From: Pedobacter mendelii
GTDB taxonomy: Bacteria > Bacteroidota > Bacteroidia > Sphingobacteriales > Sphingobacteriaceae
DNA length: 64,000 nucleotides
Assembly (NCBI RefSeq): GCF_014635725.1
Contig: NZ_BMDJ01000013.1
Span: 1 to 64,000, forward strand
Reading direction: 5' to 3'
In this document: positions 41,159 through 57,090 of the stretch, piece by piece
How the letters are laid out: each line of letters begins with the position of its first letter
How positions within the stretch are numbered: the first letter of the stretch is position 1
The notes under the pieces: generated by a model
Seen by the model: only the letters and a program-made list of their open reading frames with translations
What the model was told of the DNA's origin: nothing
Databases searched by the model: none
Program-made: the position numbers and the translations under genes

Positions 41159-41995
41159 ATGAAAATACAATATATCTATGTCGCTTTAATTCTTATTTTA
41201 CTTAGTTCATGCGGAACGCGTAAATATTCTAAAAACAATAAGCAGATAGAAAAAGCTTCAAACAAAGCCAACAACAACACCTATAAAAGTTATAATACAT
41301 TAAGCTACATAGATGAATTTAGGGCGGTAGCAGTAGAAGAAATGAACGCTTATGGCATTCCTGCCAGCATTACTTTAGCGCAAGGCATTTTAGAATCTGG
41401 AAGTGGAAATAGCGATTTAGCCAAATATGCCAATAACCATTTTGGTATAAAATGTACTTCCGATTGGAAAGGGAAAAATTATTTTAGAGATGATGACCAG
41501 AAAAACGATTGTTTTAGGGTTTATAAAGATGCGAGAGAATCATTTAAAGATCATTCAGCGTTTTTAAAGCGCAAACGATACAGCGCATTGTTTCAATTAG
41601 ATAAAAATGACTATAAAAGTTGGGCACAAGGCTTAAAGCAAGCTGGTTATGCAACCAACCCAAAATATCCTGATATGTTAATCAACACGATAGAGAAGTA
41701 TCAGCTTTATCAATACGACCAATCAGAAACCGAGAAGCAGAAAATTGCCCGCGAGGATAAAGTCTTTACCGAAATCAATCAAAACATTCCGCAGGAAAAA
41801 GTAAAATTTACACCCGTAGATACGCCGCCACCCGGAGCCAAACCAATTTTGGCTGATGGAACTTACACCGTAATTAAAGGCGATACGCTTTATAACATTG
41901 CCAAACGATTCAATATTAGTATTGAAGATTTAAAAATTTTAAACAACATGGCTACCGATGCAATTAAACTCGGCCAAGTATTGAAGGTTAAATAA
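41159..41995 (+). CDS. GH73 glucosaminidase lipoprotein with C-terminal LysM
   Basis: A 278-aa paralogue of the previous gene with the same domain order but a lipoprotein signal (Cys18 in LLSSCGT), so it is membrane-anchored rather than free. A polar linker (19-45) precedes the GH73 domain with catalytic Glu79 in GILESGSGNSDLA and ANNHFGIKC. After a proline-rich linker comes the LysM module (about 235-278) starting YTVIKGDTLYNIAKRF. A possible -7 TAATTTTG (41123-41130) overlaps the stop codon of the upstream gene, so it may also have its own transcript. Confidence 0.92.
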   Translation: MKIQYIYVALILILLSSCGTRKYSKNNKQIEKASNKANNNTYKSYNTLSYIDEFRAVAVEEMNAYGIPASITLAQGILESGSGNSDLAKYANNHFGIKCTSDWKGKNYFRDDDQKNDCFRVYKDARESFKDHSAFLKRKRYSALFQLDKNDYKSWAQGLKQAGYATNPKYPDMLINTIEKYQLYQYDQSETEKQKIAREDKVFTEINQNIPQEKVKFTPVDTPPPGAKPILADGTYTVIKGDTLYNIAKRFNISIEDLKILNNMATDAIKLGQVLKVK

Positions 41996-51617: not shown

Positions 51618-53111
51618 ATGATTAAAAGCTTAAGATTTATACTTATTTTTTTTGTTCTCGCTTTTCTCTCTCCTAAAAATTCATTTGCAAATTTCGATTT
51701 TAACACCAACTGCTTAAACGCTTATAAAAGTATTTTTGAACTTAAACTCGGCAACGCAAAAGCGTATATCGCTACAGAAAAAAAACAACATCCTAACAAC
51801 TCTATTATACCATTATTAGAAAATTATGTAGATTATTTTACTTTAATTACTTCGGGAAGTAAAGTAGATTTCGATAAGTTAAAAGGAAATAAATCAGCCA
51901 GATTAGATAAAATAAATGATGACGATAAAAACTCGCCGTATTATTTGTACGCTCAAGCCGAGATAAATTTGCAATGGGCATTAATTCGGAGTCGTTTCGG
52001 AGAATATTTTAATGCTGCAATGGAAATTAGAAAAGCAAATAACCTATTGCTTGATAACAAAAAAAAGTTTCCAAACTTTTTACTAAACGATAAAGGCCTT
52101 GGCTTAATTAATACAGTTTTAGGAAACCTTCCCGATGGGGCTTTAAAAAGTGCTTTATCAACATTCGGTATAAAAGGTAATACACAAACAGGGTTAGCAA
52201 TACTTGATAAACTTGCTGAAAATTTGCCAAAGTCAACCTACGAGCCTTTTTACGAAGAGGTAGTTTTCTATTACGCATATGTTCTAACCGATGTGGCCCA
52301 TAGTCCTGCAGCTTATGTAAAAACAATGAAATATACCGAGCGTATTGCAGATACTAGCCTTTTAAAATCATACCTTCAGAGTTATGTTTGTATAAAGACA
52401 GCACACAATGATGAAGCTATAAATATTCTGGCTAAAAAACCTGAAGGCGGAACTTATCAGTCGTTTCCATATCTTGATTATTTAGAAGGTATTGCTCATT
52501 TAAACAAATTAGACTTAGGTGCATCAACTTATTTTAATCGGTTTTTGCAAACTAATAAGGGCGTAAATTTTATAAAAGACACCAATCTCCACTTAGGATG
52601 GATAGCACTGTTAAAGGGTGACAAATCCGGCTACACGAGCTTCATATCAAAAGCTAATAATTCTGGCTACACATACAACGAAAAAGATAAACAGGCACAA
52701 AATGAAGCATCAGCGCCTGCCCCGCCAGCAGATTTATTAAAAGCAAGATTATTATATGATGGTGGTTACTTATCTAAGGCCTTACAGTTATTAGATGATA
52801 GAAAAGCTGCTGATTATAATTCTGATAAAGATAAAACAGAATTTAATTACCGATTGGGAAGAATTTATGATGACTTAGGAAAGGATGACCAGGCGCTTAA
52901 TTATTACCAGGCAGCAATAACACAAGGAAAAGGCCTTAAGTATTATTTTGCAGCAAATGCAGCTTTACAAATGGGCAAGGTGTATGAGAAAAAAAACAAT
53001 AAAGTTAAAGCAAAAGAGGCTTTCAATAATGCGATATCTATGAAAAATCATGAGTATGAAAGCAGTATCGAAAGCCAGGCAAAAATGGGTTTAAAAAGAG
53101 TTGGATTTTAA
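51618..53111 (+). CDS. Secreted TPR-repeat protein
   Basis: A 497-aa exported protein with signal peptide to about residue 24 (SFAN). The rest is alpha-helical and organised in TPR-like pairs, clearest at the C-terminus: EFNYRLGRIYDDLGKDDQALNYYQ-like helices (about 414-437), then AANAALQMGKVYEKKNNKVKAKEAF. A proline-rich break (EASAPAPPADLLKA) separates two helical halves. A scaffold role in the periplasm is likely. Its stop codon overlaps the stop of the convergent FabH-like gene by 4 nt, so the two mRNAs are complementary at their 3' ends. Confidence 0.8.
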   Translation: MIKSLRFILIFFVLAFLSPKNSFANFDFNTNCLNAYKSIFELKLGNAKAYIATEKKQHPNNSIIPLLENYVDYFTLITSGSKVDFDKLKGNKSARLDKINDDDKNSPYYLYAQAEINLQWALIRSRFGEYFNAAMEIRKANNLLLDNKKKFPNFLLNDKGLGLINTVLGNLPDGALKSALSTFGIKGNTQTGLAILDKLAENLPKSTYEPFYEEVVFYYAYVLTDVAHSPAAYVKTMKYTERIADTSLLKSYLQSYVCIKTAHNDEAINILAKKPEGGTYQSFPYLDYLEGIAHLNKLDLGASTYFNRFLQTNKGVNFIKDTNLHLGWIALLKGDKSGYTSFISKANNSGYTYNEKDKQAQNEASAPAPPADLLKARLLYDGGYLSKALQLLDDRKAADYNSDKDKTEFNYRLGRIYDDLGKDDQALNYYQAAITQGKGLKYYFAANAALQMGKVYEKKNNKVKAKEAFNNAISMKNHEYESSIESQAKMGLKRVGF

Positions 53112-54184
53112 AATCGGTAAATAAAAGCATTAATGTGCATACCAGCACCTACTGATGCGAAGACTGCAACATCTCCTTTTTTAACTTTATAACCCTTAAC
53201 CTGCTCTTTTAAAACTAAATCTAATAAGGTTGGGATAGTTGCTACCGAACTATTTCCAAGCCAGCTGATGGTCATAGGAACAAGATTTTCTGGAACGCTG
53301 TCTAATCCATACAGTTTAAATAAACGCTTCATAATGGCAGCATCCATTTTGCCATTTGCCTGGTGTACGAAAACAATATTTACATCTTCAACACTCAACC
53401 CGGCTTTATCTATAACTTTTTTAATTACCTGAGGAACTTGAGTTACGGCAAATTCGTAAAGCTTACGTCCATTCATTTTAAGATAGAAATTACCGCTATT
53501 TTCATCTGGATTTGAACTTTTACCCATAGTAAGTAAACCACCATGTTGAAAAGAATGAGTTTCTGTTTTATGCGCCAAAATACCATTTTTTTCTTCAGAA
53601 GAGGTGCCTTCAAAAATTACAGCCCCTGCACCGTCAGAAAATATCATGCTATCTCTATCATGCGGATCGATAATTCTCGATAATGTTTCCGCACCGATAA
53701 CCAGTACACGCTTTGCATCACCACTTTTAATAAAATAATCTGCCTGAATAGTTCCCTGCACCCAACCTGGACATCCGAAAATAACATCATAAGCAACACA
53801 ATCTGGGTTTTCTATGCCCAACAATTTTTTAACTTTTGATGCCAGCGAGGGCAAAATATCTGTACGATTACTGTTTAAAGGAATATCACCAAAGTTATGG
53901 CAAAAGATAATATAATCTAAAGTTTCCTTATCAATTTGTGCGCTTTCAATTGCTCTTTCAGCAGCTTTTGCTCCGATTTGATTGCTTAGCTGATCAGGAT
54001 GTACATAGCGTCTTTCTACAATTTCAGTTATCTCAGAAAACTTGTGAATGATTTCAGTATTTTCTTTTTCCAACCGATTTCCATTTTCGAAAAACGTAGA
54101 ATTTAAGAATTCATTACCAGAAATAATATTTTCAGGAATATAGCTTCCCGTACCGATAATTACAGTATTTATTGTTTTGCTCAT
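53108..54184 (-). CDS. 3-oxoacyl-ACP synthase III (FabH)-like ketosynthase
   Basis: A 358-aa thiolase-fold condensing enzyme. The Cys-His-Asn triad of KAS III is intact: Cys138 in DVIFGCPGWVQG, His274 in FVHQANGKM and Asn311 in WLGNSSVATI. The glycine-rich C-terminal loop is FASVGAGMHINAF. Relative to the housekeeping FabH (about 330 aa) it has extra residues near 40-65. Some family members make specialised acyl products, so this may be an auxiliary enzyme. A 22-bp palindrome directly before the start (54199-54220) suggests repression by a dedicated regulator, which is unusual for a housekeeping fatty-acid gene. Confidence 0.88.
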   Translation of the reverse strand: MSKTINTVIIGTGSYIPENIISGNEFLNSTFFENGNRLEKENTEIIHKFSEITEIVERRYVHPDQLSNQIGAKAAERAIESAQIDKETLDYIIFCHNFGDIPLNSNRTDILPSLASKVKKLLGIENPDCVAYDVIFGCPGWVQGTIQADYFIKSGDAKRVLVIGAETLSRIIDPHDRDSMIFSDGAGAVIFEGTSSEEKNGILAHKTETHSFQHGGLLTMGKSSNPDENSGNFYLKMNGRKLYEFAVTQVPQVIKKVIDKAGLSVEDVNIVFVHQANGKMDAAIMKRLFKLYGLDSVPENLVPMTISWLGNSSVATIPTLLDLVLKEQVKGYKVKKGDVAVFASVGAGMHINAFIYRF

Positions 54185-54191
54185 AATTATA

Positions 54192-54220
54192 ATACCGTAT
54201 ACTACAACGGTATGTAGTAT
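54192..54220 (-). promoter_or_regulatory. Operator-like palindrome before the FabH-like gene
   Basis: ATACTACA (54199-54206), a 6-bp centre, and TGTAGTAT (54213-54220) form a perfect 8-bp-armed palindrome. A second inverted repeat, ATACCGT (54192-54198) with ACGGTAT (54207-54213), interleaves with it. The site begins 8 nt upstream of the start codon. Size and symmetry fit a TetR- or MarR-type dimer. Confidence 0.55.
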
Positions 54221-54255
54221 AAAAATATGGTTAATAAATTAAAAATGGAAATAAT

Positions 54256-54900
54256 TTAAGAAAAATCATCTATAAGAAATACAAATAACTCTTTTGGGCC
54301 ATGAGCGCCAAGCACTAAAGTTTTCTCAATATCAGCCGTGCGGCTTGGTCCGGTTATGTTGCTAATCATAGATGGAATTTGATTTCCGTATTTATTTTTA
54401 AGCAATTGAAAAGCATCTTTTAAATCTAAAACAAGCTGGCTTGTTCGTGCAATTACAATATGATGGTGAGGGAAAATACTTAATCTTCTGCCGGCTGCAC
54501 CTTCATTTGTAACCATTACACTACCGTTCCGGGCAACTAAAGCTTCACACATTGTTATACCTACTTCAGCCTGTTCAAAATCTTTATCCGTTTGATAAAA
54601 AGGAAATTCGTATTTGGCCAAGAAGTGTTGCAATTCTGGTTCCCAGCAATATATTTTACGCCATTTAAACTTATCAGCGAGCTGAAGCATGTTTTCGATA
54701 AAATCGATACCATCTTCACAAAAAATAAAATTACCTGATACTGCCGTTAGTTGTTCGGCAAACAAAACTTCGAGCTCATCAATATTTTTTTTGTACAATG
54801 GCGTATCCTCTAAGTTTGGATAAGGATTTTCACGCTTCTCTAAAAGCGCTTTTCTTATCTTCTTTAGCATTTGTTCTTTCGCGGTTGTATTATCCCTCAT
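54256..54900 (-). CDS. LUD-domain (LutC/YkgG-like) protein
   Basis: A 214-aa protein of the LUD (DUF162) family. An N-terminal helical part is followed by the core with GITMCEALVARNGSVMVTN, AAGRRLSIFPHHHIVIA and GPSRTADIEKTLVLGAHGPKEL, the classic C-terminal LutC signature. In lactate-utilisation systems LutC acts with LutA and LutB, but neither gene is nearby, and the gene follows ftsH as is common in Bacteroidota. A terminator-like hairpin ends 16 nt before its start, leaving almost no room for its own promoter. Confidence 0.88.
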   Translation of the reverse strand: MRDNTTAKEQMLKKIRKALLEKRENPYPNLEDTPLYKKNIDELEVLFAEQLTAVSGNFIFCEDGIDFIENMLQLADKFKWRKIYCWEPELQHFLAKYEFPFYQTDKDFEQAEVGITMCEALVARNGSVMVTNEGAAGRRLSIFPHHHIVIARTSQLVLDLKDAFQLLKNKYGNQIPSMISNITGPSRTADIEKTLVLGAHGPKELFVFLIDDFS

Positions 54901-54969: not shown

Positions 54970-57090
54970 TTATTCATTTTCTGAAGCAGGCTTTAAGCCT
55001 GTAACTTCCTGATTGATATCAGAACTACCAACCCCATCATGAATTAGACCTTCTGCAGCAGGTGTTTGGTCGCCTGTACCATTAACAAATTCATCATAAG
55101 TTGTACGCGTATCAAATGGTCGTTTACCTAATATCTCTTCTAAGTCAGCCTGGAATAAAATCTCTTTTTCCAATAGTTTCTGAGCTAGTTTTTCTAAACC
55201 TTCTTGTTTATCGATCAATAATTGTTTGGTTTTGATGTAAACATCACCAATCAGTTTACGAACCTCAACATCAATTAATTCTGAAGTTTTCTCAGAATAA
55301 GGTTTGTTAAAATTGTATTCATTTTGAGGATCGTGGAATGAAACATTACCAACAGCCTCATTCATGCCATAAATACTAACCATAGCATAAGCAAGTTTGG
55401 TAATTCGCTCTAAATCATTTTGTGCACCTGTAGATATACGACCAAAGGTGATATCTTCAGCAACTCGCCCACCCATTGTCATACACATACCATCAGTTAA
55501 TTGCTCGGTTGTATATAAAAACTGCTCTTTAGGTAAATATTGTGCATAACCTAACGCGGCAACACCACGAGGAACAATAGATACTTTAACTAATGGATCT
55601 GCGTGTTCAAGAAACCAGCCTGCAATTGCATGGCCTGCTTCATGATAAGCAACGATACGTTTTTCTTCTGGAGAAATAATTTTATTTTTTTTCTCTAAAC
55701 CACCAATTACACGGTCAATTGCATCTTGGAAATCCTGCATATCTACCGATTCTTTGTTTCTACGAGCTGCAATTAGTGCTGCTTCATTACAAACATTGGC
55801 AATTTCAGCACCTGCAAAGCCTGGTGTTTGAGCAGATAGTTTTTTAGCATCAACTTCTGCCGAAGTTTTTATTGGTTTTAAGTGAACATTGAAAATATGT
55901 TCACGGCCTACTAAATCAGGTTTATCAATAGAAATTTGTCTGTCAAAACGACCTGGGCGTAATAAAGCAGAATCCAATACATCTGGGCGGTTGGTTGCTG
56001 CAAGAATAATAATTCCTGAGTCAGTTCCAAAACCATCCATTTCAACTAGTAGTTGATTTAAAGTATTTTCACGTTCATCGTTACCACCCATTACGCTATT
56101 TTTTCCACGAGCACGACCAATTGCATCAACCTCATCAATAAAGATGATACATGGTGCTTTATCTTTAGCCTGCTTAAACAAATCACGTACACGTGAGGCA
56201 CCAACACCTACAAACATTTCTACGAAATCAGACCCTGATAGGGAAAAGAAAGGGACTTGAGCCTCTCCGGCAACAGCTTTAGCCAATAATGTTTTACCTG
56301 TACCCGGAGAACCAACAAGTAAAGCCCCTTTAGGAATTTTACCGCCAAGATTTGTATATTTTTTAGGGTTTTTAAGGAAATCTACAATTTCCATGACCTC
56401 TTGTTTGGCTTCTTCTAAACCGGCAACATCATTAAATGTAATGTTAACCTGGCTTTCTTTATCAAATAATGTCGCTTTAGATTTTCCGATACTGAAAATC
56501 TGTCCGCCACCGCCAGCACCACCGCCCATGCGTCGCATAATGAAAATCCAGAAACCAATTAATAGTAACACCGGTAAAATGATACTTAAAAACCAGCTCG
56601 CTAATGGATTACTACGATTTTCAGGTTGAAATGAGATTGGCTTCCTACCGGCAGGTAAGTTTGCTTGAGATTCTTTTAATTTGGCAGTTAAATCCGAGAA
56701 CTTTCCGCCAACTTCAAAATAAACTGTTGGTGAAGTTGCATTGGATATGTTTAAAGCGCTATTGTTTTTAGCTGTTTTATATTGTGCTTTGCCTAGACTA
56801 TCTTTTTTGATGTAAACTTCAGCTTTAACTAAATCTTCGGTTTGAAAGGCAACAATTTTATCAACATCCCCAGGTAAAAGCATTTGGCTTTCAAAAGTTT
56901 CATAAGTTACTTTTTTACCCGTATCGCTCGTAAATAAAAATTGTGCGGCAATAATGGCAACAATAATGGCTGCATAAACCCAAAAAATATTAAACTTAGA
57001 CCCTTTTTGAGGCTTTTTAGGAATGTTGGGCAACTTCTTTATTGGTTTGTTTTCGTTAGTATTTTGATTATCGTTCATTGTCTTGTTCAA
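54970..57090 (-). CDS. ftsH: ATP-dependent zinc metalloprotease FtsH
   Basis: A hexameric inner-membrane protease that degrades misassembled membrane proteins and short-lived regulators. Two membrane helices (about 34-53 and 163-185) flank a periplasmic domain. The AAA module has Walker A GSPGTGKT (260-267) and Walker B IIFIDE (315-320), and the SRH arginines follow in [18 protein letters not shown]. The zinc site is HEAGH (483-487). 706 aa with a polar N-terminal extension and C-terminal tail. Two close start codons (Met1 and Met5) are possible. Follows rsfS by 14 nt on the same strand. Confidence 0.97.

Follow-up and report, generated by a model that had tools for sequence, protein, structure and literature searches.

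The locus examined here raises the question of whether the inverted repeats directly upstream of a FabH-like gene in Pedobacter mendelii form the binding site of a regulator and, if so, which protein binds there and what else it controls. The gene lies within the first 64,000 nucleotides of contig NZ_BMDJ01000013.1 (hereafter the window), and the initial annotation had described an interleaved double palindrome 14 nt from its start codon. This description agrees with the coordinates: ATACTACA-N6-TGTAGTAT occurs at 54199-54220 with no mismatches and nowhere else in the window, 14 nt separate it from the ATG start codon (54184-54182), and ATACCGT/ACGGTAT (54192-54198/54207-54213) interleaves with it. 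Together they make up a 29-bp element that ends 7 nt before the start codon. Both palindromes are present, but their 8-bp arms are not conserved and the element is best read, by comparison with its relatives, as four half-sites, ATAC-N3-ATAC-N7-GTAT-N3-GTAT (Table 1).

The 358-aa product of the FabH-like gene (whose end at 53108 includes the stop codon) was assigned to KAS III on the Pfam domains ACP_syn_III and ACP_syn_III_C, both of which it contains, and its closest named relatives are from Pedobacter. The Cys-His-Asn triad is intact, as had been noted, with C138, H274 and N311 (in the setting GCPGW...HQAN...GNSS) invariant across 28 aligned orthologues. The AlphaFold model (pLDDT 92.3) has a FabH fold, matching 2ebd_A with a Z score of 44.4 and an rmsd of 1.5 over 308 residues. 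The protein shares fold and triad with housekeeping FabH but differs from it in its GCPGW motif, in scores of 211 and 194 bits that fall below both NCBIfam FabH cut-offs (249 and 292.1), and in overall sequence, its alignment to this genome's plsX-linked FabH containing 97 identities in 331 residues. Four KAS III matches were found in this genome: the FabH-like gene, the plsX-linked fabH (L006) and two further matches. The housekeeping fabH is L006, which lies beside plsX (PlsX and KAS III by Pfam) and is flanked by rpmF and accB-accC, named by reading. The plsX-acc gene order is found at L006, and the FabH-like gene has neither this gene order nor a score at the curated FabH level. Because a plsX-linked fabH exists elsewhere in the genome, we classify the FabH-like gene, on sequence, as an auxiliary rather than a housekeeping ketosynthase, as originally proposed. 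The N-terminal region described as enlarged does exceed that of the housekeeping paralogue, but the extra length is modest. FabH-like copies of about 70% identity that lack the operator were observed in Pedobacter psychrodurus (L084) and P. deserti (L079), and P. psychrodurus also holds an operator-bearing FabH-like copy (L046).

Chance alone should produce an 8-bp inverted repeat of fixed spacing about once per 64 kb (estimated as 64000/4^8), and a match to the palindrome at up to 3 mismatches occurs in 34 of 100 shuffled windows. Genome-wide, loose palindrome patterns are not commoner than their reversed controls (26 vs 34 per strand, and 32 vs 32). Taken alone the palindrome is weak evidence, and it is conservation that gives it significance. 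We sought eight core bases, xxAC-N5-AC-N7-GT-N5-GTxx, within about 85 nt of the start at 212 of 215 fabH-like loci (two had no match at 1e-40 and L035 was dropped as partial); the window gene is itself among the 212, some genomes are represented by a locus from each of two collections, and there are 64 distinct elements. All eight bases were present at 142 of the 212 loci and in none of 4240 shuffles, among orthologues with about 50-100% protein identity. Bases outside this selection are also nearly fixed (position 8 is A in 64/64 and position 22 is T in 63/64). The full 8-bp arms are peculiar to the P. mendelii genome, which has TGTAG where most relatives have TTTAG or similar; the conserved object, judged from these sequences, is the set of four ATAC half-sites and not the 8-bp arms. 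The element is kept where the upstream gene differs and therefore belongs to the FabH-like gene. With 35.0 bits in the position weight matrix (PWM) it is the best-scoring place in the window, and a weak operator-like site at position 41427 was discarded as it lies inside a coding gene. These results bear out the proposal of a dimer-type DNA site, and the element is almost certainly a conserved protein-binding site. The initial annotation had named two grounds for dropping its reading, a palindrome unconserved upstream of orthologues and this gene being the only fabH, and neither was found.

A TAnnTTT box abuts the upstream edge of the element in 60 of the 64 distinct copies, compared with 7 of 64 in a shuffled control counted over half as many positions, and of 63 box placements, 58 have their first base 7 or 8 nt upstream of the element. 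A TTG located 18-20 nt further upstream was counted 22 times. An excerpt of PMC9723704 places a TAnnTTTG box at -12 to -5 in Flavobacterium psychrophilum, and the Bacteroides -7 consensus is likewise TAnnTTTG in an excerpt of PMC7366714. From the box abutting the element and the box spacing in F. psychrophilum, we infer a transcription start near element position 6 (window 54215). The element probably spans about -5 to +24 of the FabH-like transcript.

Table 1. Location of the FabH-like gene, its candidate control sequences and associated genes.
Feature	Position	Strand	Details
FabH-like KAS III gene	53108..54184	-	358 aa; triad C138-H274-N311; FabH fold in model
29-bp operator candidate, sense ATACTACATACCGTTGTAGTATACGGTAT	54192..54220	-	half-sites 54220-54217, 54213-54210, 54202-54199, 54195-54192
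-7 box candidate TATTTTTA	54220..54227	-	transcription start expected near 54215
LUD-domain gene, upstream context	54256..54900	-	
FtsH-like gene, further upstream context	54970..57090	-	named by reading
TetR-family candidate regulator, own genome	G000 contig 8, 70655-71227		beside pheS
Microprotein, own copy	G000:C12:107828-107932 (L254:1560-1667)		previously unannotated
Microprotein, relatives	L287-L311, L367-L387, L408, L413, L430-L459		

A profile of the element (R1) was built from 66 rows and run on genomes. In P. mendelii (G000) it recovered the fabH-like site (E 1.6e-6) and two places in the gap between atpC and ilvE, C7:151107 (E 0.002) and C7:151250 (E 0.26). Two ilv copies lie 148-149 bp apart in seven of the eight Pedobacter ilv loci (L294, L295, L296 and L303-L306; not L297), the second being weaker (10.5-15.4 bits), and this spacing of about 14 helical turns would allow looping. 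In other genera a copy precedes ilvE or ilvD (L378, L380, L394, L396, L407, L410, L418 and L427). The Pedobacter ilv site is followed by a Leu/Ile/Val-rich leader peptide (L303 on C7 of P. mendelii, L294-L297 and L304-L306), and a terminator-like hairpin with a T run precedes ilvE in the two ilv leaders that were spelled out. By its sequence this leader appears attenuator-like; the L303 leader has no Rfam match. A ATGCAAGCAT-like palindrome, also conserved, lies just upstream of the ilv operator (L303-L306, L394, L407 and L418) and is possibly the site of a second regulator. The strongest copies outside fabH-like genes among the scanned loci reach 32 bits and precede AMP-binding (acyl-CoA ligase-like) genes in two genus g21 genomes (L384 and L386; Pfam on L386). 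The element, as we read these places, is shared with the ilvE-ilvD operon and with the microprotein gene described below, and is not private to the FabH-like gene. Sites at ilvN (L378, L380, L383, L393, L394 and L426) were rejected, as they fall in codons of a conserved peptide, TENQIG, and P. mendelii R1 matches beyond fabH, C7 and C12 were not counted, having PWM scores under 10 or being intragenic. A weak operator-like place preceding a gene read as valyl-tRNA-synthetase-like (C3:418211-418235; L302:2003-2031; R1 E 0.03, PWM 8-9), was not accepted.

The third set of sites lies 35-45 nt upstream of a short reading frame, about 36 codons long, whose consensus is MSxELLEFSxxIDExFDxxxxxxxGFxxxILxxFxx. 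The position of the sites relative to this frame, which is present also without a neighbouring rlmD (L372, L373 and L379), led us to reject rlmD/rumA as their target. We found 27 frames and kept 23, leaving out L301 (a near copy of L290), L368 and L369 (18-residue frames) and L414 (diverged tail). Substitutions at codon positions 1/2/3 number 1570/670/2205 over 231 pairs from 22 of the frames (L287, with a diverged tail, was also left out), as expected for coding DNA. The microprotein is predicted to be charged in its N-terminal half and to end in a hydrophobic or amphipathic tail. Four members tested have no Pfam family, and NCBIfam returned only one noise match to them, at E 0.03. The microprotein is present in 108 of the 201 family genomes, including all 36 sampled from the genus. 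Among the 30 best-scoring microprotein loci, which are not a random draw, 28 have an upstream site of at least 9 bits at a fixed distance and the other two score 8.4 and 6.6, compared with a maximum of 5.8 bits in 1500 shuffles. The P. mendelii site is weak (9.2 bits; R1 E 2.1). Several microprotein loci have a TAnnTTT box 8-10 nt after the operator. Several genus g37 genomes (G082, G126, G132, G148, G162 and G190) have a frame truncated to about 18-21 residues or interrupted by an in-frame stop, and there the microprotein may be decaying.

No regulator gene adjoins the FabH-like gene among the window frames read, in line with the earlier view that its regulator is encoded elsewhere. The most likely candidate, judged on gene order and co-occurrence, is a TetR-family protein with a Pfam TetR_N domain, whose gene follows pheS and a small lipoprotein-like gene. 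It is present in 184 of the 201 family genomes, as a single copy in all but G167 and G181. Among 149 genomes drawn from across the class it was found at E <= 1e-25 in five, all of them Sphingobacteriaceae. The suggestion that a copy of the site beside a TetR-type gene would identify the regulator held in relatives but not in P. mendelii: a site lies directly behind tetR in four Pedobacter genomes (L287, L289, L291 and L292) and, within the sequence read, at five (L307-L311) of the 30 best TetR loci (L307-L336), while none is near tetR in P. mendelii itself (L328).

Every one of the 108 genomes with the microprotein also has the TetR gene, and the microprotein is absent from all 17 TetR-negative genomes (Fisher p 8.6e-7, ignoring phylogeny). 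Both positions are listed for 104 genomes, and the distance between the microprotein and tetR is at most 6 kb in 57 of these and at most 300 bp in 27; this count uses the 133 TetR places among the matches listed and one microprotein place per genome, four of the 108 genomes having no TetR place listed. The fabH-like core was found at 67 of 102 loci in TetR-positive genomes and at one of eight in TetR-negative genomes (Fisher p 0.005, ignoring phylogeny), the exception being G193, which is 68% complete. These 110 loci are those read from the 201-genome sample, loci such as those of G050, G099, G110, G119, G120, G157 and G172 (of both TetR states) falling outside the count. Of the 35 core-less loci in TetR-positive genomes, six carry an upstream site at another position that exceeds the 99% control level, and in five of these it also exceeds all 1400 control values. 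R1 matched 6 of 13 TetR-negative genomes, and the places opened (all but that of G073) were not at fabH, ilv or the microprotein; they were discarded as intragenic (G045, G109 and G089), adjacent to genes for ribosomal proteins (G110) or at some other location (G107). A further 13 genomes, all TetR-positive, were scanned: six had matches at ilv or the microprotein (G054, G057, G065, G076, G079 and G092), one had a match elsewhere (G060) and six had none at the limits used (G043, G068, G055, G056, G078 and G059). At the limits used, the TetR-positive genomes G169, G046 and G041 also gave no profile matches.

Our preferred reading, to which we assign a probability of roughly 0.74, is that the element serves as operator in a small Sphingobacteriaceae regulon (the fabH-like gene, ilvE-ilvD and the microprotein) repressed by the TetR protein encoded beside pheS. 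We infer TetR binding, repression, the effector and the roles of the enzyme and microprotein as follows. The candidate TetR protein would bind the 29-bp element as two dimers. Repression is expected at the FabH-like gene because the element overlaps the last part of the candidate -7 box as well as the predicted transcription start, where bound TetR would block initiation. Also under its control would be the ilvE-ilvD operon for branched-chain amino acids and the microprotein of about 36 aa. A lipid or branched-chain metabolite, perhaps an acyl-CoA, would release the protein from the DNA and so allow primer supply and the auxiliary ketosynthase to rise together. Iso-branched fatty acids are built on primers that come from branched-chain amino acid synthesis and are used by KAS III enzymes, so a joint switch of ilv and KAS III would make sense.

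The strongest competitor, though an unlikely one, is that the site is real but bound by another transcription factor, with the link to TetR reflecting gene order and shared ancestry. The microprotein and tetR are neighbours in many genomes, such that one association may carry the other, and many TetR-positive genomes have no recognisable site. This reading does not readily account for the absence of the microprotein from every TetR-negative genome, nor for the lack of the core at seven of their eight fabH-like loci. The only gene that could stand for such a factor beside the FabH-like gene is a response-regulator-like gene that recurs upstream (position -1) in one Pedobacter clade, at 28 places; it was rejected as the regulator, as the element occurs without it and it is missing beside most copies, the window included.

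Activation from the element, by TetR or by another factor, is somewhat less probable again. The box that follows the operator at the microprotein would put the site at about -50 to -22, a region also used by activators, but the position of the element over the transcription start of the FabH-like gene is a better fit to repression.

It is very improbable that the element works as RNA, through a pseudoknot-like leader with interleaved pairing in the fabH-like mRNA. The arms do interleave, with interleaved pairing in 75.6% of cells compared with 73.7% in shuffles, and three of five pairing measures were reached by only 1 in 500 shuffles. However, relatedness alone can give such an excess, many pairs are broken (in as many as 36 of the 66 rows), nested pairing does not exceed that of shuffles, and RNAalifold predicts no pairs; both pseudoknot and nested-helix readings were rejected on these pair counts and foldings. 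The first arm also lies largely before the predicted transcription start, and at the microprotein the element precedes the promoter box. The element matched no Rfam family and showed no covarying helix of the kind expected of a structured RNA leader. Finally, an 8-bp inverted repeat by itself is not rare, but the conservation of the core across such divergent orthologues makes a chance repeat a negligible explanation.

The TetR operator reading can be compared with characterised systems. In an excerpt of PMC4150764, TetR sites bound by two dimers are 22-32 bp long and those bound by a single dimer 15-17 bp, so the 29-bp element suits two-dimer binding. The QacR/CprB/CgmR class shares with our candidate a TetR_N domain and a long operator of more than two half-sites, 29 bp falling inside the 22-32 bp range, and QacR is among the PDB matches to the candidate, for the DNA-binding domain only. 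In contrast, the targets in that class are efflux or antibiotic genes whereas those proposed here are ilv, KAS III and the microprotein, and two-dimer binding is here a prediction. Bacillus FadR and other TetR lipid regulators are likewise tied to lipid-type genes, and PDB entry 3whb matches the N-terminal part of the candidate. The candidate scores only 49.2 bits against NCBIfam FadR, far below the 200-bit cut-off; its targets differ from those of FadR, and its response to acyl-CoA is only supposed. By its description in an excerpt of PMC3920632, mycobacterial BkaR is a TetR repressor of nearby genes for branched-chain keto-acid metabolism; the two are alike, by description only, in being TetR repressors tied to branched-chain metabolism, and differ in that BkaR targets nearby genes.

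A TetR regulon is a known kind of system, but the regulon of this element is apparently undescribed in the open-licence papers searched, where we found no described regulator for the element and nothing on lipid control in Pedobacter; the excerpt of PMC9026213 contains nothing on a TetR regulator. The microprotein appears to be the part furthest from described systems. The analysis brings to light a conserved coding gene, about 36 codons long, that, apart from the single noise match, belongs to no Pfam or NCBIfam family in the members tested, together with a specific site, one candidate regulatory protein and three defined targets. More tentatively, and at a little under even odds, these may belong to a family-wide lipid and branched-chain regulon under one pheS-linked TetR protein, with the microprotein as its most widespread target; the peptide would tune envelope lipid synthesis together with the ketosynthase and the ilv operon.
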